Source: Roseovarius gahaiensis
Lineage (GTDB): Bacteria; Pseudomonadota; Alphaproteobacteria; Rhodobacterales; Rhodobacteraceae
Direction of reading: 5' to 3'
NCBI RefSeq assembly: GCF_011601345.1
Contig: NZ_JAAORB010000002.1
Span: 124,001 to 188,000 of the forward strand
DNA: 64,000 nt
The notes beneath the pieces are model-generated. The model saw nothing but the letters and a program-made list of their open reading frames with translations. It did not search any database and was not told the DNA's origin. Both the position numbers and the translations under genes were made by a program. Numbering within the stretch: position 1 is the stretch's first letter; each line of letters begins with the position of its first letter. This document shows positions 9,814 through 50,863 of the stretch, one piece after another.

Positions 9814-9850
9814 ACCTGCCTGTTTTCTGTCCAGAAAATAGGGCTGGGTC

Positions 9851-12008: not shown

Positions 12009-12010
12009 CA

Positions 12011-12035
12011 GCGCCGTTGACGGGCGGCGTTCTTC
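12011..12035 (+). terminator. Weak terminator-like hairpin after the LysE gene
   Basis: CGCCG (12012-12016) pairs with CGGCG (12025-12029), extended by a G-T pair, with an 8-base loop and an interrupted T-rich tail. It sits just after the exporter stop and before the gyrB promoter. Position supports the call more than strength does. Confidence 0.3.
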
Positions 12036-12067
12036 CCTTGTGGCGCAACCCCTAAATATTGGGGTAA

Positions 12068-14545
<2,478 letters not shown>

Positions 14546-33357: not shown

Positions 33358-34140
33358 TCAATCCGAGCGGTCGAGCGTGATTGTGACGTTGGCTGCGTTG
33401 AATGCCTGTATCCCGCGCAGTGGTATCCATTTTCCAGATGGCAGGCGCTTTGCGTTGATGGCGGTGCCATTACTGGAGGCTTTGGCGTTTTCGTCGCCGT
33501 CCCTTAGGTAGAGTTCACCCTTGTGGTACCGCAGCATGCAGTGGCGTCCCGATACGCTGATTGCATCGCGTGGCAGGACGATATCGGCCCAACCCGGATC
33601 GCGTCCGACATGCACCATGCCTTTGGATGCAAATCTGGCGATGTTGCCAAGGGTGTACTTTGTTTTTTGGTTTTTGGGCCCGATGGCGATAATGTTCCAG
33701 GTTTTGGGGTGACGATATCCGCGGGGGGCCATTTCCGAGAACCACGCGATCCCGGTCGATTTGTCGTAGCTGGCGGCGCTGTCCAGACGTATGCCCCCCA
33801 AACCCATCAGCGCATATTTCTTGATCGCGCGCAGGGTTCTGCGCCCGGCTTTGACTGGCTGTCCCGCGGTGTCGCGCATTTTTAGGCCAAGGAGGATACG
33901 GCCAAGGCTGGCTCCGCCGAGAACGACATCGGACATGATCGCGTAGATCACGAGGAGAAGCGCAAACACGCCAAGCCAAAGTGCTTCGGGTGGGGTGGTG
34001 GAAAACAGGCGTGTGAGTTGGTCAACGATGGTGGGGCCGATCACTCGCGTCAAAAACAAAACGAACACGGCGTCCATCAGGGCTGCGGTCAGCAACAGCC
34101 GGGATGAGATGGGCTCTGGCAGACGTCCGGGTTTGCTCAT
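33358..34140 (-). CDS. RDD-FHA membrane protein
   Basis: A 260-residue fusion. Residues about 12-75 hold two hydrophobic helices and the RDD-like phrase GGASLGRILLGLKMRDTAGQPV follows. The C-terminal part (about 170-258) is an FHA domain, with the core residues in VHVGRDPGWADIVL, SVSGRHCML and the SSNGTAIN loop. FHA domains bind phosphothreonine peptides, so the membrane part is probably controlled by, or recruits, kinase substrates of the nearby kinases (inference). Its ATG overlaps the stop of the upstream membrane-protein gene. No published system is recognised for this exact fusion. Confidence 0.85.
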   Translation of the reverse strand: MSKPGRLPEPISSRLLLTAALMDAVFVLFLTRVIGPTIVDQLTRLFSTTPPEALWLGVFALLLVIYAIMSDVVLGGASLGRILLGLKMRDTAGQPVKAGRRTLRAIKKYALMGLGGIRLDSAASYDKSTGIAWFSEMAPRGYRHPKTWNIIAIGPKNQKTKYTLGNIARFASKGMVHVGRDPGWADIVLPRDAISVSGRHCMLRYHKGELYLRDGDENAKASSNGTAINAKRLPSGKWIPLRGIQAFNAANVTITLDRSD

Positions 34141-34673: not shown

Positions 34674-34735
34674 GACGACTGTTTTGCGGCGCTTTGTCAA
34701 CGTGATGCGCGAATTGTGTGTTTCGCGCGGGGCGA

Positions 34736-35449
34736 GTGAATCATGCATATGTGTGGGGCATTTTGTTTTTGGTTCCGATGCTGCTTGCGGGATGCATGGA
34801 GCAGACGGGTGGACCGGCGGCTTCTTTGTCGGGATCGGGTGCTAAGACCAAGGAAGAACGGCAACTTGAAGCGGAAGCACGCAGCCTGAACCAAGTCACG
34901 AAAAACATAATTGTGTAAAACACAGTCGAGGGTGCCGTTATCGGCGCTGCGGCGGGCTGTGGTATCGCGTTGCTGCTGGGCGGCGATGGCGGCGACTGTG
35001 CCAAAGGCGCGGCAGCCGGGGGTGTTATCGGTGGCGTTGGAGGCAACGCCGTTGGTCGGCAAGCCGCACAAAAGAAGGTGGAACTTGTCCAACGCGACAA
35101 GGTTCTGGCCAATCTGCGTGGTGTCAGCCAGCGCCTTAATGGGGTCGAGACGCGTTTGAACCGGGTCTTGAATTCGCAAAACGCAGAACTGAGTTCATTG
35201 CGGCGTCGGGTCAACGCACAGCAGGTGTCGAAATCTGAGTATGACGCGCGTGTTCGTGCCATCAATTCGAACCGGCAAACGGTGAAGAATGAGTTGCAGA
35301 AAAGTGAAAACAACATTGTCAAAACGCGAAATGAAATTCGTGTTGCACAGCAAAAAGGTCAATCCGGGCTGGTGTCGCTCGATAAGGCGGCGGCAAGCAA
35401 TCAATCCCGTCTGGCGCGCAACCGACAAAAGCTGCGCTTGATCCAGTAA
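34736..35449 (+). pseudogene. Glycine-zipper coiled-coil lipoprotein with an in-frame TAA
   Basis: From a GTG at 34736 the frame reads MNHAYVWGILFLVPMLLAGC, a lipoprotein signal with Cys at the lipobox, then continues to a TAA at 34916-34918. The same frame goes on without shift: a glycine-zipper stretch (EGAVIGAAAGCG then GAAAGGVIGGVGG) and a long charged coiled coil to 35449. One base change (for example CAA to TAA) explains the break. The intact product would be about 237 residues and, as an outer-membrane lipoprotein, is a candidate for the TagQ role in the cluster (inference). The start codon is uncertain; no good ribosome site was found. Confidence 0.7.
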
Positions 35450-35461
35450 GGCTTGGAACTT

Positions 35462-35488
35462 TGCCCGGGCGCAAACTGTGACCGGGCA
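35462..35488 (+). other. Hairpin between the two lipoprotein genes
   Basis: TGCCCGG (35462-35468) pairs perfectly with CCGGGCA (35482-35488) across a 13-base loop. No T run follows, so it may be a transcript processing or attenuation element rather than a terminator. Confidence 0.35.
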
Positions 35489-35518
35489 TGTATTAAATGG
35501 TTTAGAGGAGAAACAGAT

Positions 35519-35976
35519 ATGAGTTTTCGTTCAAAGGTCTGATTGCTGCGGGTCTTGTCGGAGCTTTGGCCGGGTGCACCGGCTCGACCGATCCGGAAAC
35601 GGCCTCGCTGTTTGACAACATCAAGAATTTGAACAGCGGTGAGTATGATCGCCAGATCGCCGAAAAAGACCGCGAGGCACAGGCAATCATCGCCAACAAT
35701 CAGGCCAGCCAGCGCCGGATCGACTCGAAGGAGCGCCAAGTTTCCAGCAACGCCGGTGAGATATCGGCACTGAAATCGCAACTTTCACAGGTCAAGGCAC
35801 AGGCGGCTGCGGCGCGGGCAAAGGTGGCTTCGGATCCGGCGAAGGTTCAGCGCTTGAACGCGCTTGAGGCGCAGCTTTCGGGAATTCAGTCTGATGTCAA
35901 CACGGGCTCGGTCTCGGCGGCGACGCGTTCGGAACTGAGCCGTGTAAGCTTGGCGATTTCAGCTTTGACGAGCTGA
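35519..35976 (+). pseudogene. Coiled-coil lipoprotein with an early one-base frameshift
   Basis: An excellent ribosome site (AGAGGAG, 8-base spacing) precedes the ATG at 35519, which reads only MSFRSKV before TGA. The neighbouring frame gives a perfect lipoprotein signal, FSFKGLIAAGLVGALAGC, followed by a helical, Gln/Ala-rich body to 35976, but it has no start of its own after a TAG at 35503. Adding one T to the TTTT at 35524-35527 yields MSFSFKGLIAAG and a 152-residue lipoprotein. The mature part (QIAEKDREAQAIIANNQAS onwards) is likely coiled coil. Second candidate for a TagQ-like envelope sensor. Either a true lesion or a sequence error. Confidence 0.75.
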
Positions 35977-36026
35977 TCGCTGGCGCTTGAGCTGATTTAT
36001 TTGAAACCATAGCGAGGTTCCCGCGC

Positions 36027-37592
36027 ATGAATTTCTTGCGTTTGATTGCTACTCTTGGTCTGGCAATAATGAGTTTGGCGGCGGAAACCGACCGTGTTTC
36101 AGCACAAGCTGTCGGTGATGGCACGCCCCCGGCCCGTGTCCCGGTGGACGGTATGCCCCTGCTTGATTGCAGCCCTGCCGCACCTGCGCCCGCCGACAGT
36201 TGCATTGTGCGTGTGCCCCCGAACCAAACGCGCGGGAAATTGACCAGACGTCCGACAAGCGACAGGCCAGCCGAATTCAGGTTTGTGCGATCGGGCGACG
36301 ACCTGTTTCCGTCTGATGTCGACGTATCGGCAACGGTCTTGTTGATTGATCGTACTCCGGGGTTGAATGGTGCCCGTCGCGCGACATGGCCGCAAGTGCG
36401 CGCGCATGCGCGGCGGCTGGCGCAATCGCTTCCGTCTGACGAGCAAGTGGCGGTCTATACCTTTGACGAAACGCTGCAGCGGTTGGTGGATTTCACATCG
36501 GATCGCAACCGGGTTCTGTCGGCGATCGAGAATATGCAACTGGATGGGTTAAACACCCGGATCGCAACAAATGTCCGCGATATCGTATCAGTGCTGGATG
36601 ACCAGTCGGATGTTCTTTTGAAAAACGTGGTCGTGATCACGGATGGGATTGAAGAAGGGGCCAGTTCGATTGCCTCGTTGAACGAGGCAGCGCAAGATGC
36701 TGGGGTTACGATTTCAGCGCTGGGGATGATCTGGGCCGGTTTGGGAGATCCACAGACCGGCACGCACATTGATTTCTTGGAAGAGCTGACGAAAGGGTCT
36801 CTGGGATCATACCGCACGGTGCGTTTGCTTCAACCCGAACAAGCGCGGATTGAGGTTGGCCGTTTCATTGAAAGCTTCAATTCTTCGATCGGGAAATCGG
36901 GCCTTATTGTCCCTGTGGGTGAGCCCGCGCCAGCCGAAATCACGGTGACCATGCAAGTGCCCGTGCCGGGGCAGGAGGGCAGCTTTGACGAGCAGCAGAT
37001 CACGGCCAGCTTTGTGCCCGACGCCCCAAACCCGGCACCATCGGTTGCAGAAGACAGCCCGCAAGACACCGGAACGCAAAAGGATGCCGAGAATTTGATA
37101 TTCGGCTATCCTGCGCTTTATGTTTACATCGCCGCGGGCGTGCTGGGCGCGCTTTTATTGCTGCTTTTGGCGCTTTTGCTGCTGCGAAAACCGCGCAGCA
37201 CCGAGGAACTGGACCTGCACGAGGACGATAGTCACCCAGTTTTCGACGATACCGACAGCACCAGTTTTGTTCCACCGCCTGCGCGCCCGCAAAATGCGCC
37301 GCCGCCGGTTGCATTCCTTGTTTTGAAGCCAACGGGGGAACGCCTGCCGGTTCATGCCGGCGGCGTGGGCATCGGCAGATCGAATGAAAACAGTATCACG
37401 CTAACCGATCCAAGCGTGTCCCGCGTGCATGCGCAATTGGCCACTGGGCGCGGCGGCGGGTTTTCATTGACAGATCTGGACAGCTTGAACGGCACCTTTG
37501 TGAACGAGAAAAAAGTCTCGGGAACGCGGCAGGTGAATATCGGCGACACGTTGGGTTTTGGAACGGTCAGGGCAAGCATCGTAAAGGCCTAA
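36027..37592 (+). CDS. VWA - transmembrane - FHA protein
   Basis: A 521-residue protein. After a signal peptide (MNFLRLIATLGLAIMSLAAE) a periplasmic von Willebrand A-like domain spans about residues 95-300, with the first strand at VLLIDRTPG (Asp108) and NVVVITDGIEEG later; the MIDAS metal site is degenerate because DxSxS is not intact. One membrane helix follows (about 364-390, LYVYIAAGVLGALLLLL), then a cytoplasmic FHA domain (about 427-520) with GIGRSNENSI, SRVHAQL and DSLNGTFVN. Such a layout would link a periplasmic contact to phosphothreonine binding inside the cell. It follows the broken lipoproteins and precedes a small FHA gene. Confidence 0.88.
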   Translation: MNFLRLIATLGLAIMSLAAETDRVSAQAVGDGTPPARVPVDGMPLLDCSPAAPAPADSCIVRVPPNQTRGKLTRRPTSDRPAEFRFVRSGDDLFPSDVDVSATVLLIDRTPGLNGARRATWPQVRAHARRLAQSLPSDEQVAVYTFDETLQRLVDFTSDRNRVLSAIENMQLDGLNTRIATNVRDIVSVLDDQSDVLLKNVVVITDGIEEGASSIASLNEAAQDAGVTISALGMIWAGLGDPQTGTHIDFLEELTKGSLGSYRTVRLLQPEQARIEVGRFIESFNSSIGKSGLIVPVGEPAPAEITVTMQVPVPGQEGSFDEQQITASFVPDAPNPAPSVAEDSPQDTGTQKDAENLIFGYPALYVYIAAGVLGALLLLLLALLLLRKPRSTEELDLHEDDSHPVFDDTDSTSFVPPPARPQNAPPPVAFLVLKPTGERLPVHAGGVGIGRSNENSITLTDPSVSRVHAQLATGRGGGFSLTDLDSLNGTFVNEKKVSGTRQVNIGDTLGFGTVRASIVKA

Positions 37593-37635
37593 ATCCCTTG
37601 TTGGGAGAATGGCCACGGCAAAAAGGGGATGGGTT

Positions 37636-38262
37636 ATGGGAAAAGACAAGACAAGTTGGCTGTTTGACGAAACCGACAACGATACAGGTGATGATCTGGG
37701 CTTGGGCGATGAAAGCACAGGGGTTTTCACCGAGAGCATGCAGCATTCTGGCGATGCACCGACGCATGCCTATCTGGGCTTTGGTGAAAACGAAGCTGAA
37801 ACCCAGTTCGTGCCAAGCACCGACAAAACCGAAATCTATCACGGTGGCGTTGCTGGCAAGTATTCAGAAAAAGCCGAATTTGATGACATGGTCGATCCAA
37901 TTGTCGGCTGGTTCGTGGTGGTGCAGGGGCCGGGTATCGGGCAATCGGTCAATCTGGGCTCGGGGATGAATACAATCGGACGCGACCCCGACGAGCGTGT
38001 GGCGCTGCCGTTCGGGGATACATTGATTTCGTCCAAGGACCATGTGCGCGTGATCTATGATGATGAGTCCCGCGAATTTCTGATCGCGCCGGGCAGTGGC
38101 TCGAACGTCACAAAGATCGGGACGAAAATCGTGGCAACGCCGCAACCTCTTGAGAATTATTCGTTGATCCGCCTGAGCAAGCAAACGCATGTCAGGTTTG
38201 TGGCCTTCTGCAACGAAGATTTTGATTGGTCAGATGTTGCTGAAAACACCGACCAGAAATGA
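37636..38262 (+). CDS. Soluble FHA-domain protein
   Basis: A 208-residue cytoplasmic protein. The first 85 residues are acidic and Thr/Asp-rich (for example FDETDNDTGDDLGLG and STDKTEIYHGG), with several Thr-containing stretches that could be kinase targets. The FHA domain (about 89-205) has MNTIGRDPDERVALP and SKDHVRVIYD, but the NGT loop is replaced by SNVTKIGTK. By position it resembles Fha1, the phospho-target that PpkA activates in type VI regulation (inference). The ATG at 37636 follows AAGGGG; an ATG at 37609 is the alternative. It overlaps the PP2C start by 4 bases. Confidence 0.85.
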   Translation: MGKDKTSWLFDETDNDTGDDLGLGDESTGVFTESMQHSGDAPTHAYLGFGENEAETQFVPSTDKTEIYHGGVAGKYSEKAEFDDMVDPIVGWFVVVQGPGIGQSVNLGSGMNTIGRDPDERVALPFGDTLISSKDHVRVIYDDESREFLIAPGSGSNVTKIGTKIVATPQPLENYSLIRLSKQTHVRFVAFCNEDFDWSDVAENTDQK

Positions 38263-39485
38263 GCATCGTCGGCGGTAAACAAAGTTTAGGGCAACGCGAG
38301 ACACAGGAAGACGCATTTCGGATCATTCTTCAAAGCGAACAAGATCCGAAAGCGGATATCCTGTTGTTGTTGGCCGATGGGATGGGCGGGCATGCCGGGG
38401 GCGAGGTTGCCTCTAATCTGGCGCTCGAAAGCATTGAAAAACATTTCGTATCTGTCTCTCAAAACCCGAAACCTCTGAAGCGATTGCACGAGGCGGTGAT
38501 TGCCGCAAATGACGCCATCGGACAGCGTGTGGCGCAAGACCCCAAACTGCGCGGGATGGGGTGTACTGTGCTCGCCGTTCTGAAAATCGGCGATCGGCTG
38601 CTGTGGGCCAGCGTCGGTGACAGCGTTTTGTTTTTATATCGCAACAACCGCTTGCGCCGGCTGAATGCTGACCATTCGCTGTATGGTGAATTGCTGGAAA
38701 TGGTCCGTGCCGGAAAGATCACGCAGGCCGAGGCCGATCATCATCCCAAACGCAATTCGCTGCGCTCTGCAGTGATGGGGGACAAGCTGGCGCTTATTGA
38801 TCTGTCGGGGCTAGAGTTGCAGGCCGGGGATGCTGTTTTGCTGGCCTCGGATGGTCTCGAAACGCTTGAGGATGACGCCATTCGGCAGATTTTGGAGCGT
38901 GACCAGATCGGTGATGTGCGCGGTGTCTGTTCGGATTTGCTGAACGCGGTCGATGAACGTGCCAAGCCCAAGCAGGACAACACGACCGTCGTGATGTATC
39001 GCCACGCCCATGAAGGTATGAGCGGCCTTTACCGCGACAGCCGTTGGACATTGCGCGATGCCTCGTCGCGGTTTTCCGGACTGCGTGGCATGTTGGCGGC
39101 TGGGGCTGTGGCAATCGGTGTCATCTTGTTGGGGCTGATGATCTGGGTGGTTGGGTTTTCCGGCAAGCCCGAGGCTGTGCAGACAGCCCCCTCTGATAGG
39201 TCCGTGGACACGGTGGATCGGTCCGAAGGCGCCATTACCGACAGCGATGGGGCCGAAAATGACGGTGACCAACTGCAAGAGGGGCAACCCGTCGACCCGG
39301 CGCAAGACGATGCCATCGGGGAAACCAACCCTGATCCGAATTCCGAGAGCCAAAGCTTCGAGGACGACACGCCGCCGTCTGATGCGTCACCTGATCCAGC
39401 GGGGTCATCGGTCGGCCCCGAAGGCGCGGACCCGGTTGACGATAGCTTGGGGGATGCGACCCGCGATAGTGACAGTGGGTCTTGA
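38259..39485 (+). CDS. Membrane-anchored PP2C Ser/Thr phosphatase
   Basis: A 408-residue protein with an N-terminal PP2C domain (about 1-250): QRETQEDAF, the metal motif DGMGGHAGGE starting at Asp40, GMGCTVLAVL and the late Asp240-Asn241 in KQDNTTVVMYRH. A membrane helix lies at about 277-300 (MLAAGAVAIGVILLGLMIW). The last hundred residues are almost all Asp, Glu, Ser, Pro, Gly and Thr, a strongly acidic tail predicted to be periplasmic. It should reverse the action of the neighbouring kinases, as PppA opposes PpkA. It starts on the ATGA overlap with the FHA gene. The anchored acidic tail is unusual for PppA. Confidence 0.92.
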   Translation: MSIVGGKQSLGQRETQEDAFRIILQSEQDPKADILLLLADGMGGHAGGEVASNLALESIEKHFVSVSQNPKPLKRLHEAVIAANDAIGQRVAQDPKLRGMGCTVLAVLKIGDRLLWASVGDSVLFLYRNNRLRRLNADHSLYGELLEMVRAGKITQAEADHHPKRNSLRSAVMGDKLALIDLSGLELQAGDAVLLASDGLETLEDDAIRQILERDQIGDVRGVCSDLLNAVDERAKPKQDNTTVVMYRHAHEGMSGLYRDSRWTLRDASSRFSGLRGMLAAGAVAIGVILLGLMIWVVGFSGKPEAVQTAPSDRSVDTVDRSEGAITDSDGAENDGDQLQEGQPVDPAQDDAIGETNPDPNSESQSFEDDTPPSDASPDPAGSSVGPEGADPVDDSLGDATRDSDSGS

Positions 39486-39501
39486 CCAAGGAGAAGGCGA
39501 T

Positions 39502-40617
39502 ATGTCGGACCGCCTTCCAAGAGGCACCAAAATAGCGGGGCACCAGATTGTTGATGTTCTGGGCCAAGGCGGCTTTGGGATAACGTATAAGGCTGAGAAT
39601 CTGAAATTCGGTGAACCGGCGGCGATCAAGGAGTTTTTCCCGCATGAACACGCCGTGCGCGAGTTGGACCTGAGTGTCGCGCCGCGCGAACAGTATAAGA
39701 AATTCTACCACATGGGCCTTGATGCCTTTTTCGAAGAGGCAAATCTGCTGCGTGATCTGCCCAATGTGCCGGGCCTTGTGCGTGTTCGGGCCGCGTTCAG
39801 CAAGCACAGCACGGCGTATTGTATCATGGACTATATCGAGGGCGATCCGCTTGATCGGATGGCGGCTCGATTTTCGCAAAGGGGGACACCTATTCCCGAA
39901 GCGTTGGTGCGCTCGGTGGCGTCGTCGTTGGGCGATGCCCTGAGCGCCGTTCATCAGGTGGGGCTGATCCATCGTGATGTCAAACCGGGCAACATCATGA
40001 TCCGGCGCGATGGTCAGCCGATCTTGATTGATTTCGGGGCCGCCCGGCCTTTGGGGCGCACGGTATCGATGGGGTCGATGTTCACACGCAAATATGCGGC
40101 GATCGAACAATTCCCGCGTGAGGTGGTGCCGCTGCCCCGCTCCATCCAAGAAGGACCACAGGCAGATATTTTTGCATTGTCGGTCATGCTGTATGAGCTG
40201 GTTTCGACCAGTTTGCCGCCATCGGCGGATCAACGTTTCAAGGCGCTAAAGTCTACAGGGCGCGATATATATGTGCCCGTCCGCGAAAATTTGCGGCGCA
40301 ACCGGGTGGATGCAAGTTACCCCGCGCCTTTGCTGGACATGATCGACGAAGGCTGCGCGCTGATGCCCGAAGACCGGCCAAGCAATGCGCGGCGGTTCAC
40401 CGCGCGCGTGGCCGACGGCCCGGTCGTTTCGCCGCCGCGCCATCAACCCGTGCCATCGTCCAAAGGGTCGGAATTGCGTCCGGCAGGGGTGCCTGCCGGG
40501 CGCTCACGCAAGACAACAAGACAACGGAAATTCAAAGGCCAGGCCGCGATTTTGATGATTATCATACTGCTTGCCTGTCTGGCTGCGGCTGTTGGATTCA
40601 TTATGAGGGACTACTGA
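39502..40617 (+). CDS. Ser/Thr protein kinase with C-terminal membrane anchor
   Basis: A 371-residue Hanks-type kinase. The glycine loop is LGQGGFGITY (Gly21-Gly26), the ATP Lys is Lys43 in AAIKEFFP, the catalytic loop is HRDVKPGN (His157-Asn164) and the metal Asp is in DFGAAR (Asp177). All key residues are present, so it should be active. A basic Ser/Pro linker leads to one helix near the C-terminus (about 344-366), leaving only a few periplasmic residues, so it has no sensor domain of its own. The frame is open upstream to 39151 but that is the wrong frame for the PP2C gene; the ATG at 39502 has AAGGAGAAGG before it. Confidence 0.93.
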   Translation: MSDRLPRGTKIAGHQIVDVLGQGGFGITYKAENLKFGEPAAIKEFFPHEHAVRELDLSVAPREQYKKFYHMGLDAFFEEANLLRDLPNVPGLVRVRAAFSKHSTAYCIMDYIEGDPLDRMAARFSQRGTPIPEALVRSVASSLGDALSAVHQVGLIHRDVKPGNIMIRRDGQPILIDFGAARPLGRTVSMGSMFTRKYAAIEQFPREVVPLPRSIQEGPQADIFALSVMLYELVSTSLPPSADQRFKALKSTGRDIYVPVRENLRRNRVDASYPAPLLDMIDEGCALMPEDRPSNARRFTARVADGPVVSPPRHQPVPSSKGSELRPAGVPAGRSRKTTRQRKFKGQAAILMIIILLACLAAAVGFIMRDY

Positions 40618-40620
40618 AGC

Positions 40621-41868
40621 ATGTTTGTAAGAAGGGTCGTTTTTGCGGCAGTCGTGGGGTTGGTCTGGGTGATGACGGGCGTGTCGTCTGTCACGGCGGA
40701 AGACTTTGAAGAGATCGTAGTGACGGCTGACAAAGCGATGGGTCGGACGGTTACCGCCGAGCTTATCACTGGATCTGGATTTTTGTTGGCGCCGGTGCCG
40801 GACAGTTCAGATTTTTATTATCTGACCAACAAACACGTGATTGAGGGTAGCAGAGCGCTGGCTGTGTTCTTCTCAAGCAATGGCGAGATTTTTCAATACA
40901 ACGCAAAGGTATTGCACACCAGCGCGGGGCTGGATTTGGCGGTTCTACGGCTAAGCCCTGACGGCGATACCCTGCCCGACCCGGTGTTCTTGCCGATTGC
41001 ATCGCGCGACATGCGCAAGGGTGAGCCGGTGGCCGCGCTTGGCTATCCTGGCTCGGCTGACGAGATAGTTTCAAATGATGCAAACCCGGCGCTGTTCGAG
41101 ACTACGCTTACCCAAGGCGCGGTGTCCAAGGTGTTCATGGGCACATGGGTGCGTGATGGATCGTCGCTTGAAATTGTGCAGCACACGGCCTCTGTGAATA
41201 AGGGGAATTCGGGTGGCCCGTTGCTGGATTCGTGCGGACAGGTGATTGGGGTCAACACTAAAATTTCACAGGAGACGCCAAGCGGCTTCCCCACAAACGG
41301 CACGTTCTGGGCCTCGTCGTCAAATTCGATTGCGGGTTTCTTGTCGATTGTCAAAGTGCCCTATTACGTTGAAAACAGTTCATGTGGGTCTGACGCGTCG
41401 GGGGCGTCTGGCTCGGCGATGACTCGCGGCGTGCCAGCTTGGGTTTACATCGTTGCGGGGGTGATCGGCGTTGCGCTGATCGGGGGCGGGGTAACCCTGT
41501 TTCTTACGAACAAGACGCAGGGTGCCACAGGTATAAAACCAGTGGGGCGGGGCCGCAAAGCCGCGCTGCGGCTGCGGATGGCTGGCAGCCCTGACACAAC
41601 CCTGACCGCTGGACAGCTGAAAGCCGGGGTCACAATCGGGCGGTCCTCTGAGAATGCCCTTGTGGTCAACCAAGAGGGGCTAAGCCGCGTTCACGCGCGC
41701 ATAGATTTGCAAAACCGTGTGCTGCGCGTGACTGATATGGGGACGACAAACGGAACCACCGTGAATGGTCAGAAGCTAACCCCGAATACGCCCGTACAGG
41801 TCACGACGGCCTCGGATATTCGGTTGGGGGGCATCCCGCTCAAGCTGGCAAAGCCGGGTAAATCATGA
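40621..41868 (+). CDS. Periplasmic trypsin-like protease fused to cytoplasmic FHA
   Basis: A 415-residue protein with a signal peptide (about 1-26), a trypsin-like S1 protease domain with an intact triad (His72 in TNKHVI, Asp105 in LDLAVL, Ser197 in GNSGGP), a membrane helix at about 277-297 (WVYIVAGVIGVALIGGG) and an FHA domain at about 330-410 (TIGRSSENALVV, SRVHARI, TTNGTTVNG). No PDZ domain is present. The design suggests periplasmic proteolysis controlled by phosphothreonine binding inside, or the reverse. It follows the kinase after 3 bases and overlaps the ABC ATPase gene by 4. I know of no such fusion in the characterised TagQRST pathway. Confidence 0.9.
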   Translation: MFVRRVVFAAVVGLVWVMTGVSSVTAEDFEEIVVTADKAMGRTVTAELITGSGFLLAPVPDSSDFYYLTNKHVIEGSRALAVFFSSNGEIFQYNAKVLHTSAGLDLAVLRLSPDGDTLPDPVFLPIASRDMRKGEPVAALGYPGSADEIVSNDANPALFETTLTQGAVSKVFMGTWVRDGSSLEIVQHTASVNKGNSGGPLLDSCGQVIGVNTKISQETPSGFPTNGTFWASSSNSIAGFLSIVKVPYYVENSSCGSDASGASGSAMTRGVPAWVYIVAGVIGVALIGGGVTLFLTNKTQGATGIKPVGRGRKAALRLRMAGSPDTTLTAGQLKAGVTIGRSSENALVVNQEGLSRVHARIDLQNRVLRVTDMGTTNGTTVNGQKLTPNTPVQVTTASDIRLGGIPLKLAKPGKS

Positions 41869-42581
41869 CGGACGCCGTGCTGCATATCCGTAACCTCGGC
41901 GTGCGCTTGGCGCATGACTTTGCCGTCGTGATCGAAACGATGAATTTGCAGCGCGGCGAAACATTGATTCTTGATGCGGTCAGTGGCACCGGCAAAAGCA
42001 CGGTGCTGGGCCTGATTTCAGGTGCGATTGCGCCGGATGATTTTGCCGATTGTGACCATCGCGTGGCTGGGCATGATCTGTTCACACCGCAAGGCCGTGC
42101 CGCAGTGGCGGCCCCTGATGTCATGGGCTTTGTTCTTCAGACAAACGCCCTGATCCCGTATCTTTCGATCCAAGAAAATATTCGTCTGCCGCTTGCCATA
42201 AAGGGGCATACCCCAGATCAGGACTGGCACGATCATTTGATCGCAGCCTTGGGGATTTCAGGTCTTCTTGCGCGCAAGCCCGCGCAAATTTCGGTTGGTC
42301 AACGACAGCGGGCGTCGATCGCGCGTGCGCTGCTGGCCCGGCCACGGGTGTTGCTGTTGGATGAGCCTGTTTCGGCGCTTGATCCTGCCAATGTCGCTCA
42401 GGTTGAGCAATTGATTGCCATTCTCGCGCAAGAGGCCGGATCGGCAGTGGTTTTGGCCAGCCATCAATCACAAAGTGGCGCGTTTGAAGACGCGCGCCGG
42501 GGCACGCATAGTGTTTTCAGCCACCAACAGGTGACATATTCGGTTTTTGGCGGCTCCTTGACGCAGGAGCGCGCCGCATGA
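41865..42581 (+). CDS. ABC transporter ATPase (LolD/MacB/TagT-like)
   Basis: A 238-residue ABC ATPase. Walker A is SGTGKSTVLGLISG, the Q loop FVLQTNALIPYLSIQEN, Walker B VLLLDEPVSALD and the switch His is in ASHQSQSG. The signature is degenerate (ISVGQRQRASIARALL rather than LSGGQ). Family members work with FtsX-type permeases in lipoprotein release or mechanotransmission rather than solute transport. Together with the permease and the SUMF1-like gene it matches TagT in the type VI regulatory set. Four-base overlaps link it to both neighbours. Confidence 0.9.
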   Translation: MTDAVLHIRNLGVRLAHDFAVVIETMNLQRGETLILDAVSGTGKSTVLGLISGAIAPDDFADCDHRVAGHDLFTPQGRAAVAAPDVMGFVLQTNALIPYLSIQENIRLPLAIKGHTPDQDWHDHLIAALGISGLLARKPAQISVGQRQRASIARALLARPRVLLLDEPVSALDPANVAQVEQLIAILAQEAGSAVVLASHQSQSGAFEDARRGTHSVFSHQQVTYSVFGGSLTQERAA

Positions 42582-43774
42582 CGTATCTGCCGATAACCCT
42601 TGCGCTCAAGGATTTGCGCCATGATTGGCAAGCGGCCGTGTGTTTTATTGCGGCGTTGGTCGGCGTTTTGGCGCCTTTGTTGATTGTTCTGGCACTAAAG
42701 AACGGTGTGATCGGCACGATGGTTGGCCGTCTGGTCGAAGACCCGTCGAACCGTGAAATTCTGGCGGTCGGGGCCGGGCGGTATGATCAGGATTTTTTCA
42801 ACGCCCTTGCTGCACGCGGCGATGTTGAGTTTGCTATGCCTGCCACACGGTCAATCAACACATCGGCGGATGCCGTGCAAAACATGGCGAACCGTCAGTT
42901 GGAACGCGCTGTGCCGCTTGTGCCCAGTGCTGCGGGCGATCCGTTGATCACCGCGTTCGCGCCTGTTGGCCCGGGTCAGGTATATGTCAGCGCAGCACTG
43001 TCTGAGGCGTTGGGCGGTCTGCGCGCCGGGGCAATGCTTGAGATTCTGATTGGCCGCGAGATTGACGGCTGAGAGGAGCTGGCCCGCCGGGAACTGGAGG
43101 TTCTGGGTCTCGTTCCGGACGACATGTATGGGCGCGATGCCCTGTTTTTGTCACTGCCCGACCTGTTGGCGATCGAGCGGTTCCGCGATGATGCCGCGAT
43201 CACCCCTGCCACGTGGATGAATGATCGTCCCGCGCCCGTGGCCTATGCCAGTTTCAGGCTTTACGCCAAGGAACTTGACCAGCTGAAGGGCCTTCGCGGC
43301 TGGTTGGAGGACCAAGGGATCACAACGCGCTTGCGTGCGCAAAACGCGGCTTTGTTGCTGGCCTTTCGCGACAATCTGAACGTGCTTTACACGGGCGTTG
43401 CGATTTTGGCTGCGGCCGGGTTCTGGGCCTCGATGGCGGCCAATCTGCGCGGTGCCGTCGAACGGCAGCGCATTGCCTTCAGCCTGTTGCGACTGCTTGG
43501 ATTGTCGCGTCGCGGCCGCATTTTGATTCCGGTGTGTCAGGGGCTGATATTGGTCATGGCTGGTATCTTTTTGACATTTTGTCTGGTCGTTCCGGCCACG
43601 TTGATCATCAACAGCATGTTTTCGGCCAGCACGGGAAATGCGATCGCCACATTGGGAGCGCAAGATTTGATTGCGACCTGTGGTGTCGGACTGCTGACCG
43701 CCTTCACAGCGTCAGGCTGGGCCGTTTGGGCCGTCAAGGGAATTGAGAAAGCAGAGGTGTTGCGCCATGGTTGA
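42578..43774 (+). pseudogene. FtsX/LolC/TagS-like ABC permease with an in-frame TGA
   Basis: The frame starts MTYLPITLALKDLRHDW at 42578 and stops at TGA 43070-43072 (codon 165). The same frame continues, without shift, through EELARRELEVLGLV to 43774. The whole would be about 398 residues with one N-terminal helix, a large periplasmic domain (containing the stop) and three C-terminal helices (VLYTGVAILAAAGFWASM, LILVMAGIFLTFCLVVPA, LLTAFTASGWAVWAV), the standard plan of these permeases. A single base change such as CGA to TGA explains it. It would be the TagS equivalent. If real, the ABC complex has lost its membrane half. Confidence 0.85.
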
Positions 43775-45425
43775 CCAGAAACCCATCAAGCGATTGCCAT
43801 TTTTCAGGACCGTCTTGGCGGTTTGCACTGTCCTTGTTGCCCAAGGGCCTGTCATGGCCCAGACCACGGGCATTGAATGGCGTGACAGCTATTACAACCC
43901 GCAGCCTGCCGATGATGATCTGATCCTGCCCATGCCCTGCGGTGGGGCGATGGTGTTCCGCAAAGTGTCCACGCCGAATGTCGATGGTGCAATTGGTGAC
44001 GTGCCTGTGACCTTGGGGCAGGAGGGCGACGATCGGCCCTATCTGAATGGTGTTTGGCGGTCTTATGTATCCGGTGCCTTCTCTGATGATGGCAGCCCGA
44101 CCAAGGGTTATTTCTACATGGCCAAATATGAACTGGCCGAAGCGCAATACGATGTCGTCATGTCGGGCTGCCCTGACAAGACCCCGCGCAGACGGGCGTT
44201 TTTGCCCAAGGTGGGTCAGACGAAACTGGAGTATCAAAGTTTTGCCCAAGCCTACAGCCTGTGGCTGATGCAGAACGCACCGGAACACCTGCCGCAAGTC
44301 GGGGAAACACGGGCCTATTTGCGCTTACCAACGGAAGAGGAGTGGGAATTTGCCGCACGCGGCGGCATGAACGTGGAAAGCGCATTGTTTCGCAAGACAC
44401 GGCCACCCATTCCCGATGGTCGGCAGCAAAGTGAATACATTGCGCATGGCGGGTCAGACAGTGCTGCGGGCCGCATTCAGGTGATTGGCTCGCTTGCGGC
44501 CAACCCTTTGGGGCTGCACGACATGCTGGGCAACGCCGCCGAAATTGTCGGCACGCCGTTTTCACTGATCCGACACGGGCGCCAGCACGGGCAGGCCGGT
44601 GGTTTGGTCAAGCGCGGGGGCGATGCGCGTACGCCCTTGTCGTCAATTACCAGCGCCACGCGAGACGAGCTGCCGCCGTTCGATGTGCTGTCCAACGAAC
44701 CCACGCAGGACAGGTTCGCGGCGACGCGCTTGGTGGTGGCCGGACTGGCGATCACTTCTGCCGCGCAAGCCGACGCTTTGAACAGCAGCCTGCAAGAGCT
44801 TGCCAAGCCCGACCCTGCGCTAAGCACCGCATCATCCGAGGAAGAGGTGATTGCCCTGTTGGACGCGATGCGCGACGCCGCCGGTTCGGAACGAGACAAA
44901 AGCAGGCTGGATGCCATCAAATCCACGCTGCAACGCGGACAGGTGGCGCGCAACACCCTGCGCGACAAATCCATTCGCTTGATATTGAATTCTGCGGTTC
45001 TGGTCTGTGATCAGGCGGTGCAACGGTATCTGAACGCCCTTGCCGCCGCCCTGACCATTCAACACGATCTGGCCGAGTTAGAGGACGACGCCCGCCGCGC
45101 GGGCGATGATGCGTTTTTGCAGCAGGTGCTTGAGGCCAAGCGAGAGGCGGAGGACCAGTTGGCCGGTCTGGAACGCAAGGCGGTGGCCAACGTGGTGGAA
45201 TATGCCAACCTGATCGAAGGGCTGTCCGAGGATTACTCGCGCGCCTTGCTGGACAAGCAAACCGATTTCATACGTCCCGAGGTCGAAGCGGAAGGCGCGC
45301 GCCGGACCCAGTGCCTTGGGTTGATGTCGACCCATCTTGCGGCCCGCAGGGCGGCGGGACAGTCGGATGTCGATTTGATTGCGCTGGATATTCAGAACAT
45401 TGCGGTCGAGCAAGCGGCGGAGTGA
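43767..45425 (+). CDS. SUMF1/FGE-like periplasmic protein (TagR-like)
   Basis: A 552-residue exported protein. After an N-terminal signal (RTVLAVCTVLVAQGPVMA) comes a formylglycine-generating-enzyme fold (about 60-310) with RLPTEEEWEFAARGG (about 185-200) and GLHDMLGNAAEIVG. The catalytic Cys pair of true FGE enzymes is not evident: the segment after VKRGGDART has none. The C-terminal third (about 340-550) is a long coiled coil. This matches TagR, the non-enzymatic SUMF1-like protein that acts on PpkA in the periplasm. The ATG at 43767 overlaps the permease end by 8 bases. Confidence 0.85.
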   Translation: MVDQKPIKRLPFFRTVLAVCTVLVAQGPVMAQTTGIEWRDSYYNPQPADDDLILPMPCGGAMVFRKVSTPNVDGAIGDVPVTLGQEGDDRPYLNGVWRSYVSGAFSDDGSPTKGYFYMAKYELAEAQYDVVMSGCPDKTPRRRAFLPKVGQTKLEYQSFAQAYSLWLMQNAPEHLPQVGETRAYLRLPTEEEWEFAARGGMNVESALFRKTRPPIPDGRQQSEYIAHGGSDSAAGRIQVIGSLAANPLGLHDMLGNAAEIVGTPFSLIRHGRQHGQAGGLVKRGGDARTPLSSITSATRDELPPFDVLSNEPTQDRFAATRLVVAGLAITSAAQADALNSSLQELAKPDPALSTASSEEEVIALLDAMRDAAGSERDKSRLDAIKSTLQRGQVARNTLRDKSIRLILNSAVLVCDQAVQRYLNALAAALTIQHDLAELEDDARRAGDDAFLQQVLEAKREAEDQLAGLERKAVANVVEYANLIEGLSEDYSRALLDKQTDFIRPEVEAEGARRTQCLGLMSTHLAARRAAGQSDVDLIALDIQNIAVEQAAE

Positions 45426-45458
45426 GACGATGACCAAAAGACAAGAAAAAGGTGACCT

Positions 45459-45731
45459 ATGCGAGATATGCTGAACAATGCCATGCCCATGCTGATCTGG
45501 ATCACGACCGGGTTTTTCATCCTCAGTTCGTGCTTTTCTGGCGCAATGATCATTCGCTATGGCGGAGCAATTTACAGCTTTGATATTTGGGCAGTGATTG
45601 GTGGTTTCCTGACCATCATTTTCGGGGTCACGATGTCTTTTGTGTTTGCGGGCATCTGTTTCCAGATCATGGATATTCGCGAATTTACCAAGCACACGGC
45701 AATCGGCCTGCGCAAATCGGCCCGCCGGTGA
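45459..45731 (+). CDS. Small two-helix membrane protein
   Basis: A 90-residue protein with two hydrophobic stretches, PMLIWITTGFFILSSCF (about 10-30) and VIGGFLTIIFGVTMSFVFAGICF (about 46-68), and a basic C-terminus. No family recognised. AAAAAGG lies before the ATG. Its place between the SUMF1-like gene and the second kinase, with short gaps and the same strand, suggests it is an inner-membrane part of this complex. Confidence 0.65.
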   Translation: MRDMLNNAMPMLIWITTGFFILSSCFSGAMIIRYGGAIYSFDIWAVIGGFLTIIFGVTMSFVFAGICFQIMDIREFTKHTAIGLRKSARR

Positions 45732-45764
45732 CGGCCTTGTTTACATGCGGATGGAGTTAGACAG

Positions 45765-47117
45765 ATGGAAAAAACCGTACTGGGGCTGAAACCCGGCGAC
45801 ATGATCCAGGACACGTATCGCATTGACAGCTTGCTGGGCGAGGGTGGGATGGGCGCAACGTTTCGTGGCACCAACACGGCGGCAGGTCATGCCGTGGCGA
45901 TCAAGGTGATGACACCGGAGTTCGCGCGCAATTCCCGTGCGGTTGAATTGTTTCGCAGGGAATCCAGCCTGCTGCGGACCGTTCAGAACGACGCGGTCGT
46001 TCGATATGAAACAACGTTGCAGGACAAGGCGGGCAAGCTTTATCTGGTGATGGAGTATTTATCCGGCAAGCCACTTCTTTACTACCTCGACAAGGGCGCA
46101 AGATTGGCCTCGGAGGATGTGTTGAAACTTGCCGCGCGCCTGACTTCGGGGTTGGCGGCGATCCATGCGCTTGGAATCGTGCATCGGGACGTTGCGCCAG
46201 ACAATATTCTGGTCCCGGATGAGGATGTTTCCAAAGCCAAATTCATTGATTTTGGGTTGGCGTCGGATTCGGTGGGCACGGACAAATCTATCTTGGGCAG
46301 CGACTTTGCGGGCAAGCTAAGGTATTGCGCGCCCGAGCAACTGGGATTGTTCGACAATCGGATCACCCCTGCAACAGATATTTACGCGCTGGGGTTGGTC
46401 TTGATGCGTTGTGCGGGGCTCACCGTGCCGGGTGATGGCAAGGGCTGGGCCGCAATTGATGACCGCCGTGAAGATATCAAAATTCGCGATGACCGGGTGT
46501 CGCGCAATCTGCGAGGTGTGCTTGAGGCGTTCCTGCGGGCCGATCCGTCGTTGCGGCCAGACGATCCACTGGCCCTTGTGCGCAAGGCATTGGCCGCCGA
46601 AAATGCCGAGGCGCATCAGCCCGCCGGACATACGGACAGATCGGCGCCGGACGCCCAAGACCGCAAGCCCGACACCGGCGCACGCACAGCGCCTTTCGTG
46701 GCTTTGATTGCTGGATTCGTGATTATAGCGGGTGGGGCTGCGTGGTTTTTCCTGATGGGGCCGGGGGCCAGTGCAACCTCGGATGCAAGCACCGGGCAGG
46801 CCGCGCTTGCACAGGATGCGGCCCAATCCAACGATCCATTGACCGAGGCTGAAAAACTGATCGCGGCCTCGGGTGCGGATAACCTGAATGCCGCGTTTGG
46901 CGCCTTGATGGCCCTGTCCGGTGATGACAGTCAATCCGCCGACATCCGGATGCGCGCCAATATCATGATTGCGGAAATGTATGACCCGGCGACACATGAC
47001 ACCGCCCGTTCTCCGTTTCCAAGCGCGAATCCCTTGGCGGCCAAACGGCACTATCAGCGGGCCGCTGATCTGGGCTCCAACTCTGCCGCGCAAGCGCTTG
47101 CGCGGTTGTCCGATTGA
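45765..47117 (+). CDS. Ser/Thr protein kinase with transmembrane and periplasmic tail
   Basis: A 450-residue Hanks-type kinase: glycine loop LGEGGMGATF (25-30), ATP Lys47 in VAIKVM, catalytic loop HRDVAPDN (His140-Asn147) and DFG at Asp162. The Lys normally two residues after the catalytic Asp (HRDxK) is Ala144 here, as in a minority of kinases, so activity is plausible but should be tested. A membrane helix (about 309-331) leads to a periplasmic tail whose end (NPLAAKRHYQRAADLGSNSAA) looks like a single Sel1/TPR-like unit. GGAG is 8 bases before the ATG. With the next VWA gene it looks like a PpkA split in two. Confidence 0.9.
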   Translation: MEKTVLGLKPGDMIQDTYRIDSLLGEGGMGATFRGTNTAAGHAVAIKVMTPEFARNSRAVELFRRESSLLRTVQNDAVVRYETTLQDKAGKLYLVMEYLSGKPLLYYLDKGARLASEDVLKLAARLTSGLAAIHALGIVHRDVAPDNILVPDEDVSKAKFIDFGLASDSVGTDKSILGSDFAGKLRYCAPEQLGLFDNRITPATDIYALGLVLMRCAGLTVPGDGKGWAAIDDRREDIKIRDDRVSRNLRGVLEAFLRADPSLRPDDPLALVRKALAAENAEAHQPAGHTDRSAPDAQDRKPDTGARTAPFVALIAGFVIIAGGAAWFFLMGPGASATSDASTGQAALAQDAAQSNDPLTEAEKLIAASGADNLNAAFGALMALSGDDSQSADIRMRANIMIAEMYDPATHDTARSPFPSANPLAAKRHYQRAADLGSNSAAQALARLSD

Positions 47118-47130
47118 AAGGAAACCGGTG

Positions 47131-49104
47131 ATGATTAATCGTGCTTCACAAGTGCTGCAAACCGTTGTTTTAGCTGGTGTTCTGGGCGCGTTTCTCTGGG
47201 GGTCGATGGCAAGCGCCGCTGATCGCCCGTTGCTTATGGATGGCAAGGAGTCGTTGTTCGAACGCGTTCTTGTCCGAGACAGCACCGCGATGTTCGATGC
47301 GCCTGACGGGCGCGGCAGCGGGCAATTGCGGCCGTTGCAACCGCTTTATGTGTACGCCGAAAGCGGGGATTGGTTGCGTGTAGCGCGCGGCGACAAGGGC
47401 GATGATCTATTCTGGGTTCCGGCGAACACCGTCACACCGTGGCGGCAAAATATCGTGGCCACGTTGCAAACCAGTGCGAATTTGGATCGGACATTGTTCT
47501 TTTCGGACTATGACGCAATTTATGATGTTGTCGAAAGCGAAGCCCCCGGCCTGTCCGCACAAACTCTGCGCCAAGAGGCGGAAGCCGCTGAAACGGCCAA
47601 TGGCGATTCTGAACGGATCGTAGCCTTGGGCCCACGCGATGCCGTTAATTTGCGCGACAATCTGTATGTCATGCCGATCCTTGAAACCGAGGAGGCTATT
47701 TTTGAAAACGGCTCGTTCGTGAACCTGTTGAAGGTTGCTGTGGCGCGCGCACAACCGGATGATGCGCCGATTGACAATGATCCGGTCGCCGACGTGACCC
47801 CGGAAGAGGCGCAAGGCGCGTTTCGGGCCGGGGTTGTGTTCGTCGTTGATACGACCATTTCCATGGAGCCGTTTATTCGTCGAACACAGGCCGCCTTGGA
47901 AGAGGTATATGACGGGGTTCGGCGTACCGGAGCGCAAGAGGCGGTATCATTCGGGCTGATCGGATTTCGCGACAACCTTCAGGCTGCGCCCGGCCTTGGC
48001 TATGACGTTCAGACTTTTGTCGATCTGAATGCCGGTTTTGATGCGTCGGCGTTCCTGAATGGCATCACTCGTATGACCGAAGCGGGCGCATCCAGCCGGA
48101 ACTTTCGCGAAGACAGCTATGCCGGGATCGAACACGCCTTGCAAGCCATGGACTGGTCGCCGTTCGGGGCGAAATTTATCGTTCTGGTGACCGATGCAAG
48201 CCCGCGTGAAGCCAATGACGGCTATTCCAAAACGCGCCTCAGTGCTAAGGGACTTGGAACGTTGGTACGGGAAAATATCAACGGGGCGATCGCGGTGATG
48301 CATCTGCGCACACCGCAAGGGCCAAATGACCACGACCGGGCGGAAGCCGCCTATCGTGAATTGACACGCCAGCCCAACGTGCCGCCGTTGTATTTTCCCA
48401 TAGAAAATGGCGACCGCGACGAATATCAGGCCAGAGCGCGTCAGCTTGGTCAGATCGTTGCAGATCAGGTCAACCGCTTTCGTGGTGGTCAGGATCCCCG
48501 CGATTTTTCTGATGACGATGACACTATTGACGAGGATACCAAGGCCTTTCGGGCGGCGGGCCGCACGATGCAGTTGGAATATCTTGGCCGCTCGCGCGGT
48601 TCCGAGGCCCCGGATGTTTTTGAGGCGGTTGTCGCAGACCGCGATTTCGCGCGCCCCGGCCTGAAACCTTTGTCGATCCGTCTTTTGCTGACCAAGGCCG
48701 AGCTGAGCAATCTGGACGAGGCATTGCGCATCATCATTGAAAAAGCCGAGGAAAACGTGATCAATCCCGATGACTTTTTTGGTCAGGTTCTTGGGGCGGC
48801 CGCAGATATGAGCCGTCGGCCCGACAAGGTCTCGCGCCGATCTGATCCAACGCTGGCGGAGGCTGTGAACGTATCCGAATTCATCGAAGACCTGCCTTAT
48901 AAATCCCGGATCATGGCGATCACCGAGGCGGATTGGGTGCGCATGTCGATCTCGGAGCAGCAGACGGTTGTGAACGAGTTATATGAGAAAATCGAGCGTT
49001 ACCGCAGATACAATGCGGCCACCGATCAATGGGTGGATTATCTGGGGGCGGGGGCGTCCGCAGGCGGTTTGGTTTACCCGATGATGTTGGATGATTTACC
49101 CTGA
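47131..49104 (+). CDS. Periplasmic VWA protein like the C-terminal half of PpkA
   Basis: A 657-residue exported protein with a signal peptide (VLAGVLGAFLWGSMASAAD). Residues about 40-100 look like a bacterial SH3 domain (LYVYAESGDWLRVARG). A VWA domain (about 232-450) has the metal motif VVDTTISM at Asp240 (DxTxS) and FIVLVTDASPRE. The last part (about 490-657) contains YKSRIMAITEADWVRMS, a stretch I associate with PpkA-type proteins. In P. aeruginosa PpkA the kinase and VWA are one chain; here they are separate genes 13 bases apart. AGGA gives 8-base spacing. This is the last gene of the cluster. Confidence 0.85.
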   Translation: MINRASQVLQTVVLAGVLGAFLWGSMASAADRPLLMDGKESLFERVLVRDSTAMFDAPDGRGSGQLRPLQPLYVYAESGDWLRVARGDKGDDLFWVPANTVTPWRQNIVATLQTSANLDRTLFFSDYDAIYDVVESEAPGLSAQTLRQEAEAAETANGDSERIVALGPRDAVNLRDNLYVMPILETEEAIFENGSFVNLLKVAVARAQPDDAPIDNDPVADVTPEEAQGAFRAGVVFVVDTTISMEPFIRRTQAALEEVYDGVRRTGAQEAVSFGLIGFRDNLQAAPGLGYDVQTFVDLNAGFDASAFLNGITRMTEAGASSRNFREDSYAGIEHALQAMDWSPFGAKFIVLVTDASPREANDGYSKTRLSAKGLGTLVRENINGAIAVMHLRTPQGPNDHDRAEAAYRELTRQPNVPPLYFPIENGDRDEYQARARQLGQIVADQVNRFRGGQDPRDFSDDDDTIDEDTKAFRAAGRTMQLEYLGRSRGSEAPDVFEAVVADRDFARPGLKPLSIRLLLTKAELSNLDEALRIIIEKAEENVINPDDFFGQVLGAAADMSRRPDKVSRRSDPTLAEAVNVSEFIEDLPYKSRIMAITEADWVRMSISEQQTVVNELYEKIERYRRYNAATDQWVDYLGAGASAGGLVYPMMLDDLP

Positions 49105-49240: not shown

Positions 49241-50713
<1,473 letters not shown>

Positions 50714-50863
50714 GGTCACGTCTCCTTGCCTTTGTCCGATTTGGGTCGCATCGGGTGGTTCCGGTGCGGCGCATTGATGTGCGTCTTACTTAGGTAGTGT
50801 CTGCAGGAACGCAAAGTTCGCAACACTGTGTCACGCTCATGTGAATGCGTAGTGAACAGAAAA

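Follow-up and report, generated by a model that had tools for sequence, protein, structure and literature searches.

An HtrA-like protease fused through a membrane helix to an FHA domain recurs beside Ser/Thr kinases in several bacterial groups

One gene in a 64,000-nucleotide stretch of Roseovarius gahaiensis DNA (contig NZ_JAAORB010000002.1, positions 124,001 to 188,000; hereafter the window, whose own numbering is used below) encodes a trypsin-like domain, a membrane helix and a C-terminal FHA domain in a single chain. We found that this fusion layout is not a one-off but recurs across several bacterial groups, and that the fusion belongs to a recurring module comprising a kinase, a PP2C phosphatase and a short FHA protein, often with a protein in which a VWA domain is joined to an FHA domain. 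The fusion is predicted to be a bitopic inner-membrane protease, i.e., one with a periplasmic HtrA-like domain, one helix and a cytoplasmic FHA domain in the place of a PDZ domain. That phosphothreonine made by the kinase docks the FHA domain of the protease, recruiting or clustering the protease in an envelope complex, is a proposal to which we give an even chance. Coordinates are collected in Table 1.

The open reading frame (ORF) of the fusion starts with ATG and has bounds of exactly 40621-41868. Its Trypsin_2 and FHA matches both exceed the curated Pfam cut-offs (for FHA, 59.8 bits vs 20.7), and the catalytic residues lie in the contexts TNKHV (H72), GLDLAVL (D105) and KGNSGGP (S197). An AlphaFold2 model, made from an alignment of eight sequences with the window protein among them, had a mean predicted local distance difference test (pLDDT) score of 76.7 and a predicted template modelling score (pTM) of 0.56; the protease and FHA parts were mostly confident, and the linker was of low confidence; pLDDT fell below 50 at residues 16-26, 218-224, 257-272 and 288-311. 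ORF, Pfam, hydropathy and model agree on a trypsin-like domain with His72, Asp105 and Ser197, a membrane helix and a C-terminal FHA domain in one chain, as an earlier note on this DNA had proposed.

The fold of the protease part matched Deg2 with a Z score of 25.4 over 183 residues (root-mean-square deviation 1.8), with many Deg/HtrA entries tying. A Foldseek search placed MarP (Rv3671c) of M. tuberculosis at the top (E = 2.5e-14), while HtrA1 ranked first in a sequence-profile search (E = 8.2e-31). With the HtrA/Deg proteases (DegP, DegS, MucD, HtrA1) the fusion shares the catalytic fold, the triad and the GNSGGP sequence; however, where these carry PDZ domains after the protease, the fusion continues into a membrane helix and then an FHA domain predicted to be cytoplasmic. 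No PDZ family was found in the protein with Pfam at E = 0.01, and its scores were below the cut-offs of the NCBIfam models listed for HtrA, DegP and DegS (degP_htrA_DO, 80.8 bits vs 416.2). Although MarP was the closest fold by Foldseek, the NCBIfam MarP model NF033740 was also missed (58.7 bits vs a cut-off of 250). For these reasons we call the protease domain HtrA-like but do not class the protein as HtrA. MarP, a periplasmic protease bound to the membrane, contains a disulfide and has several membrane helices at its N-terminus, but lacks an FHA domain. The regulators usually described for HtrA proteases are peptides or misfolded proteins located on the same side of the membrane as the protease itself. 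A model of the FHA part alone reached a mean pLDDT of 89. In Foldseek it matched the FHA domain of ArnA (E = 4.1e-8) and those of OdhI, GarA and Rad53, and the solved structures matched include phosphopeptide complexes with phosphothreonine-binding FHA domains.

Eleven fusions were identified, including that of the window; the 10 others are in Pseudomonadota, apart from one in an Akkermansiaceae metagenome-assembled genome (MAG) and one in a Clostridiales MAG. The family, class and phylum counts that follow are lower bounds for the matches listed, because few candidates were scored per genome. In the family, 295 genomes from 294 genera were searched; at least 4, R. gahaiensis included, had a match that reached the FHA part; some match at E = 1e-10 was present in 199 of the 295, and among the matches listed nearly all covered the trypsin part alone. 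The 385 genomes of the class yielded, at E = 1e-32, two matches besides our own, i.e., G372 (locus L118), in which the FHA domain was confirmed, and G354 (locus L119). The L119 protein was excluded from the fusion set because its trypsin domain is not accompanied by an FHA match, even at E = 1; this protein of another genome of the class (L119:9199-10728) combines the same type of trypsin domain with a different, FHA-less C-terminal region. Two more fusions were found in 398 genomes of the phylum (G826, locus L150, and G1016, locus L151). A single-sequence query of contigs of named genomes found no relatives; with a four-sequence alignment as query, 576 were retrieved, and the best 80 included four trypsin-FHA fusions, in a Burkholderiaceae MAG (L035), Hyphomicrobium zavarzinii (L036), the Akkermansiaceae MAG (L037) and the Clostridiales MAG (L089). 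By record labels the fusion is therefore present in three phyla, two of them known from MAGs, whose phylum names are given as labelled and whose contigs may be mis-binned.

This distribution bears on the idea that the fusion is a housekeeping protease with a docking tail, clearing damaged proteins at the complex, with the FHA domain providing a constitutive location and no switch. An HtrA-like catalytic domain with an intact triad would suit such a role, and FHA domains often act as adaptors. However, a DegP-like gene (49241-50719) already adjoins the cluster, and the fusion is rare in the family (the 4 genomes of 295 given above) whereas trypsin-only matches are common, so that we regard a housekeeping role as quite unlikely.

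When the 11 fusions, the window protein included, were aligned, H72, D105, S197, G340, R341 and H358 were kept in all, Ser355 and G378 in 10 and N377 in eight. Loss of the triad in homologues had been named in the earlier note as counting against its reading; it was seen in none of the 11, and that reading is not refuted. We take an Arg and a Ser, here Arg341 and Ser355, to be the key residues of the phosphothreonine pocket of FHA domains, and Asn377 is presumably the residue usual in that pocket. It is conceivable that the FHA domain no longer reads phosphothreonine but is a plain protein-protein interface or oligomerisation domain, as the loss of Asn377 in L036, L089 and L118 might suggest; L118 has lost more of the pocket (Ser355 to Ala and Gly378 to Glu), and is the sole fusion of the 11 with either change. 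Yet Arg341 is invariant, and the one protein lacking Ser355 comes from a locus without a kinase, which makes a non-reading FHA domain a very improbable explanation.

The 25 residues after the helix were more basic than the 25 before it in all eight fusions checked. Cys205 and Cys255 were both present in nine of the 11 aligned fusions and both missing from the other two (L037 and L089), and never occurred singly, a pattern that fits a disulfide in an oxidising compartment outside the cytoplasm. Taken with the signal-peptide-like start and the later helix, the charge bias and the cysteine pair predict that the protease lies outside and the FHA domain inside, i.e., on opposite sides of the membrane. 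An opposite-side layout had been suggested in the earlier note; hydropathy, charge and cysteines all favor it and the domain layout is conserved among the fusions, with the sidedness itself holding as a prediction. The VWA-FHA protein encoded at 36027-37592 has the same predicted sidedness, with the VWA domain outside and the FHA domain inside.

We examined stretches of 8.3 to 21 kb around the fusions, and the window itself for our own locus, for homologues of the adjoining kinase, which we term STK1. The presence of this kinase had been reported in the earlier note, and was borne out: its gene (39502-40617) ends 3 bases upstream of the protease gene, which in turn overlaps the ABC ATPase gene by 4 bases, and the kinase keeps the HRDVK and DFG motifs. 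An STK1-homologous kinase was found in 10 of the 11 fusion loci (tblastn at E = 1e-4). It was encoded by the next gene in six (the window, L031, L032, L033, L036 and L150), was one gene away in three (L035, L089 and L151) and about 8 kb away in L037; in the L118 stretch no kinase was found. As controls, we used the 76 FHA-less trypsin loci from the best 80 of the 576 relatives, searched with phmmer at E = 1e-10. None of the 76 had a kinase and none had a PP2C phosphatase, although these loci average 16 kb and include some short contigs, making absence slightly easier than in a 20 kb stretch. Within the same scan, the fusion loci had a kinase in 4/4 cases and PP2C in 3/4 (for the kinase, 4/4 vs 0/76, Fisher 6e-7). 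Two control loci (L054 and L100) had a separate FHA match, yet no kinase or PP2C match. Only the protease sequence had been used to collect the fusions, so the kinases were not selected for. The FHA-bearing protease travels with a Ser/Thr kinase, and its FHA-less relatives do not. L118, which lacks the kinase and has a changed pocket, is a single case, in the direction expected if the FHA domain reads the product of the neighbouring kinase.

In a synteny comparison using 13 queries from the cluster and 20 kb stretches, L033 matched all 13. The L031 stretch had no neighbouring match to the permease, the SUMF1-fold protein, the secreted VWA protein or the pair of small coiled-coil ORFs, its one ABC match being a distant gene elsewhere in the stretch, while that of L032 had no match to the RDD-FHA protein, the coiled-coil ORFs, the VWA-FHA protein, the short FHA protein or PP2C. 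Common to the protease in L031, L032 and L033 were STK1 and the second kinase, STK2.

These neighbours bear on the opposite direction of signalling, in which, much as in DegS-type stress sensing, envelope damage would trigger the protease in the periplasm and cause it to cut the periplasmic part of PP2C, STK2, a VWA protein or the SUMF1 partner, thereby changing phosphorylation in the cytoplasm, with the FHA domain only a tether. The closest folds are of the HtrA type, including the stress sensor DegS, and MarP. Hydropathy predicts a bitopic topology for PP2C, STK2 and the VWA-FHA protein, each with a sizeable outside part that might be cut; STK1, the immediate neighbour, has only a few residues past its helix and so almost nothing to cut. 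An available excerpt of PMC10482370 describes TagQRST as sensing membrane damage upstream of PpkA in the type VI secretion system (T6SS), which would be a precedent for an outside-in sensor. On the other hand, no PDZ domain was found that could read misfolded outer-membrane proteins, and the L031 stretch keeps the protease, both kinases and PP2C without neighbouring homologues of the ABC ATPase, permease, SUMF1-fold and VWA proteins. On balance we consider outside-in signalling unlikely, although it is the main alternative.

If phosphothreonine made by the kinase is what docks the FHA domain, a candidate ligand is offered by the short FHA protein encoded at 37636-38262, whose own FHA match (20 bits vs the Pfam cut-off of 20.7) is just under threshold. 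In the tails of a first set of eight such proteins (window, L031, L033, L035, L037, L089, L150 and L151), the motif T-x-[ILVMFA]-[IVL], a regular expression chosen after viewing them, was present in 8/8, with 16 occurrences vs 3.6 expected (0/5000 shuffles as high) and no occurrence with Ser in place of Thr. With the expression frozen, we examined a fresh set of 11 from 18 homologue matches, leaving out three from known loci and four weak ones (E = 2.5e-9 to 5.8e-9). There were 15 occurrences vs 6.3 expected (13/5000 shuffles as high), present in 10 of the 11 tails (1/5000 shuffles), and in the last 110 residues 15 vs 3.9 expected (0/5000). In three fresh members (L159, L160 and L162) the match to the search model began at position 78 or beyond, yet these carry the motif. 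Its retention in otherwise variable tails indicates constraint, and the T-x-hydrophobic-[IVL] motif is a plausible phospho-ligand. The earlier note had pointed to the acidic, Thr-rich region of this protein as an FHA ligand; a conserved motif does lie there, and its binding to the FHA domain is a candidate interaction suggested by the sequences. A similar stretch, STSFVPP, with T412, occurs in the predicted cytoplasmic linker of the VWA-FHA protein. The excerpt available of PMC4037201 reports a pTXXI ligand for the FHA1 domain of Rad53 and discusses residue +3 from the phosphothreonine in connection with the specificity of FHA binding.

A number of observations weigh against the docking proposal and the topology on which it depends. 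The Ser version of the motif occurred eight times in the fresh full tails and three times in their last 110 residues, where there were 74 Ser vs 76 Thr. The shuffle statistics ignore the shared ancestry of the tails, and because tail columns formed part of the model that retrieved the fresh set, that set and the motif are not fully independent. No short FHA gene was found by the homology scan in the L032, L036 and L118 stretches, and at those fusions the short FHA protein would therefore not be the ligand, at least as a neighbour. The T-motif could also serve FHA domains other than that of the protease, and Asn377 is lost from the three fusions named above. As for sidedness, L032, L035 and L089 have a basic excess of just 2 charges after the helix, and in L033 the segment directly after it remains net acidic (-1).

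Under the docking proposal, the kinase would phosphorylate the Thr of the T-x-hydrophobic-[IVL] motif in short-FHA tails, which are variable and presumably unstructured, and perhaps also the linker of the VWA-FHA protein. The FHA domain of the protease would then dock on the phosphorylated tail, gathering the protease in an envelope complex and so placing or switching on proteolysis outside, and PP2C would reset the docked state. We infer the topology, phosphorylation, docking, effect on activity and inside-to-outside direction of this scheme. The suggestion of the earlier note that phosphorylation inside the cell controls proteolysis outside gains from the conserved layout, the kinase link and the predicted sidedness, while control of activity and its direction stay at the level of what we infer. 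In OdhI and GarA, a Thr-bearing N-terminal tail works with a kinase, and the phosphorylated tail binds the protein's own FHA domain. The short FHA protein likewise pairs a Thr-bearing tail with a kinase context, but its tail motif differs, and the OdhI model was not among its reported NCBIfam matches.

The cluster around the fusion shares with the TagQRST-PpkA-PppA-Fha pathway a membrane kinase, a PP2C phosphatase and an FHA protein. We take TagR, TagS and TagT to be of the SUMF1-fold, FtsX-permease and ABC-ATPase types, respectively, and the ABC ATPase, the FtsX-like permease with its in-frame stop and the SUMF1-fold protein of the cluster are fold-level matches to the TagT, TagS and TagR types; the SUMF1-fold protein (43743-45425) is TagR-like by fold only. 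TagQ of that pathway is an outer-membrane lipoprotein; in the cluster, the two small coiled-coil-like ORFs upstream gave weak Pfam matches only. Compared with that pathway, the cluster adds the protease-FHA, VWA-FHA and RDD-FHA proteins, and one kinase and the secreted VWA protein are separate genes. In the T6SS, TagQRST lies upstream of PpkA, which phosphorylates Fha1, and PppA reverses this, according to the available parts of PMC10482370 and PMC4348357. A gene for the sheath protein VipB was not found in the R. gahaiensis genome, and VipA was found in 0/7 fusion-bearing genomes (our own, G011, G051, G171, G372, G826 and G1016), of which G372 is 87% and G826 74% complete, the genomes of L035, L036, L037 and L089 not being included. 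VipA was found in two of nine genomes with a short FHA gene and no fusion found (G294 and G298), on another contig or about 58 kb from the short FHA gene. Membership of the cluster in a T6SS was rejected, since no sheath gene was found in the fusion-bearing genomes tested. The earlier note had not recognised the layout from the described TagQRST pathway; the cluster does resemble that pathway, but the protease-FHA protein is an addition to it and no T6SS sheath gene was detected. Nor was a known anti-phage system with kinases (MADS, PD-T4-6) indicated by the PADLOC matches listed, which covered generic kinase, trypsin or ABC parts only (for the two kinases, the best 25 of 35 matches).

The pairing of FHA and trypsin domain types is not new in print: a trypsin protein of B. 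thetaiotaomicron with two N-terminal FHA domains, NP_811686.1, is listed as one protein in PMC2605481. Like the fusion, it combines an FHA and a trypsin-family part in a single bacterial protein; the available part of that source does not state a kinase context. In a literature search covering mainly open-access papers, we found none on a fusion of trypsin, membrane helix and FHA domains with a kinase neighbour, and what appears undescribed is the order of the domains, together with the membrane helix and the kinase module.

At the loci of the 11 fresh short FHA proteins, PP2C was matched in 10 and the kinase in nine (two of them partial, at contig ends), and there was no trypsin match to the protease. 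In other genomes of the family, genes for dynamin-like GTPases (Dynamin_N, MMR_HSR1) follow the core in all three loci checked with Pfam (L173:9403-13859, L174:3409-5706 and L176:10441-13325). The large GTPase of L174 has a KTRLM stretch near its N-terminus. With dynamin-like GTPases in place of the protease beside it, the FHA-PP2C-kinase core appears to be portable and to feed different outputs. Our fuller proposal, which we hold only tentatively, is of a T6SS-independent, portable FHA-PP2C-kinase relay with interchangeable outputs, in which, here, cytoplasmic phosphothreonine would gate an HtrA-like protease across the membrane, an FHA domain replacing PDZ, i.e., inside-out control of envelope proteolysis. 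If true, this would tie eukaryote-like kinase signalling physically and directly to periplasmic proteolysis, and a kinase-phosphatase-FHA core known from T6SS control would serve other outputs.

Table 1. Features of the fusion gene and of the surrounding cluster, in window coordinates
Feature	Position	Strand	Evidence
HtrA-like protease, membrane helix and FHA fusion, 415 residues	40621..41868	+	ORF; Pfam Trypsin_2, FHA; AlphaFold2 model
Signal-peptide-like N-terminus, about residues 1-26	40621..40698	+	Hydropathy peak at residues 6-24
Trypsin-like domain, residues 51-211	40771..41253	+	Pfam Trypsin_2 E 1.5e-23; HtrA-like fold
Catalytic His72	40834..40836	+	Invariant, 11/11
Catalytic Asp105	40933..40935	+	Invariant, 11/11
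Catalytic Ser197	41209..41211	+	Invariant, 11/11
Single membrane helix, residues 277-295	41449..41505	+	Hydropathy; residues 274-294 helical in AlphaFold2 model
FHA domain, residues 337-403	41629..41829	+	Pfam FHA E 3.5e-16; domain-alone model
RDD-FHA membrane protein	33358..34140	-	Pfam RDD 1.7e-8, FHA 3.9e-10
Two small coiled-coil-like ORFs upstream	34970-35449, 35566-35976		Weak Pfam matches only
VWA, membrane helix (368-386) and FHA protein	36027..37592	+	Pfam VWA_2, FHA; hydropathy
Short FHA protein, acidic Thr-rich tail; listed ORF opens at 37609	37636..38262	+	Pfam FHA 9.3e-4; conserved family
Candidate phospho-acceptor Thr in ETQFV, short FHA protein	37801..37803	+	Motif T-x-[ILVMFA]-[IVL]
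PP2C phosphatase, helix 280-298 of 408, about 110 residues beyond	38259..39485	+	Pfam PP2C_2 3.4e-14; hydropathy
Ser/Thr kinase STK1, membrane helix at very C-terminus	39502..40617	+	Pfam Pkinase 4.7e-32; HRDVK, DFG
ABC transporter ATPase	41865..42581	+	Pfam ABC_tran 4.6e-21
FtsX-like permease, in-frame TAG at 43070-43072	42578..43774	+	ORFs; Pfam FtsX on second half
SUMF1/FGE-fold protein, hydrophobic N-terminus, start uncertain	43743..45425	+	Pfam FGE-sulfatase 2.2e-19
Second Ser/Thr kinase STK2, helix 312-330 of 450, about 120 residues beyond	45765..47117	+	Pfam Pkinase 3.3e-38
VWA-like protein, hydrophobic N-terminus; start uncertain, probably about 47131	46969..49104	+	Pfam VWA 6.9e-5, just below cut-off
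DegP-like gene next door	49241-50719		By inspection

In the permease, the second half matched Pfam FtsX just below the cut-off (3.5e-5) and the first half had no match. In L032 and L033 the homologous permease is encoded by one uninterrupted ORF, and the TAG may be either a true loss or a sequencing error.

The cluster (33500-49000) is possibly an accessory island, as indicated by a shift in G+C and by the same-genus genome G278, in which neither the protease (E = 1e-10) nor the VWA-FHA protein (E = 1e-15) found a match. G278 keeps the degP gene (78% identity); the 17.8 kb downstream of it contained neither cluster genes nor matches to truB, DUF1643 or MatE, and showed no clean empty site. The G+C content at 33500-49000 is 0.55-0.59, vs 0.61-0.64 to the left and 0.58-0.60 to the right. 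By inspection, dnaA-, dnaN-, recF- and gyrB-like ORFs lie in a row at 6939-14545, which probably places the cluster no more than about 45 kb from the replication origin.

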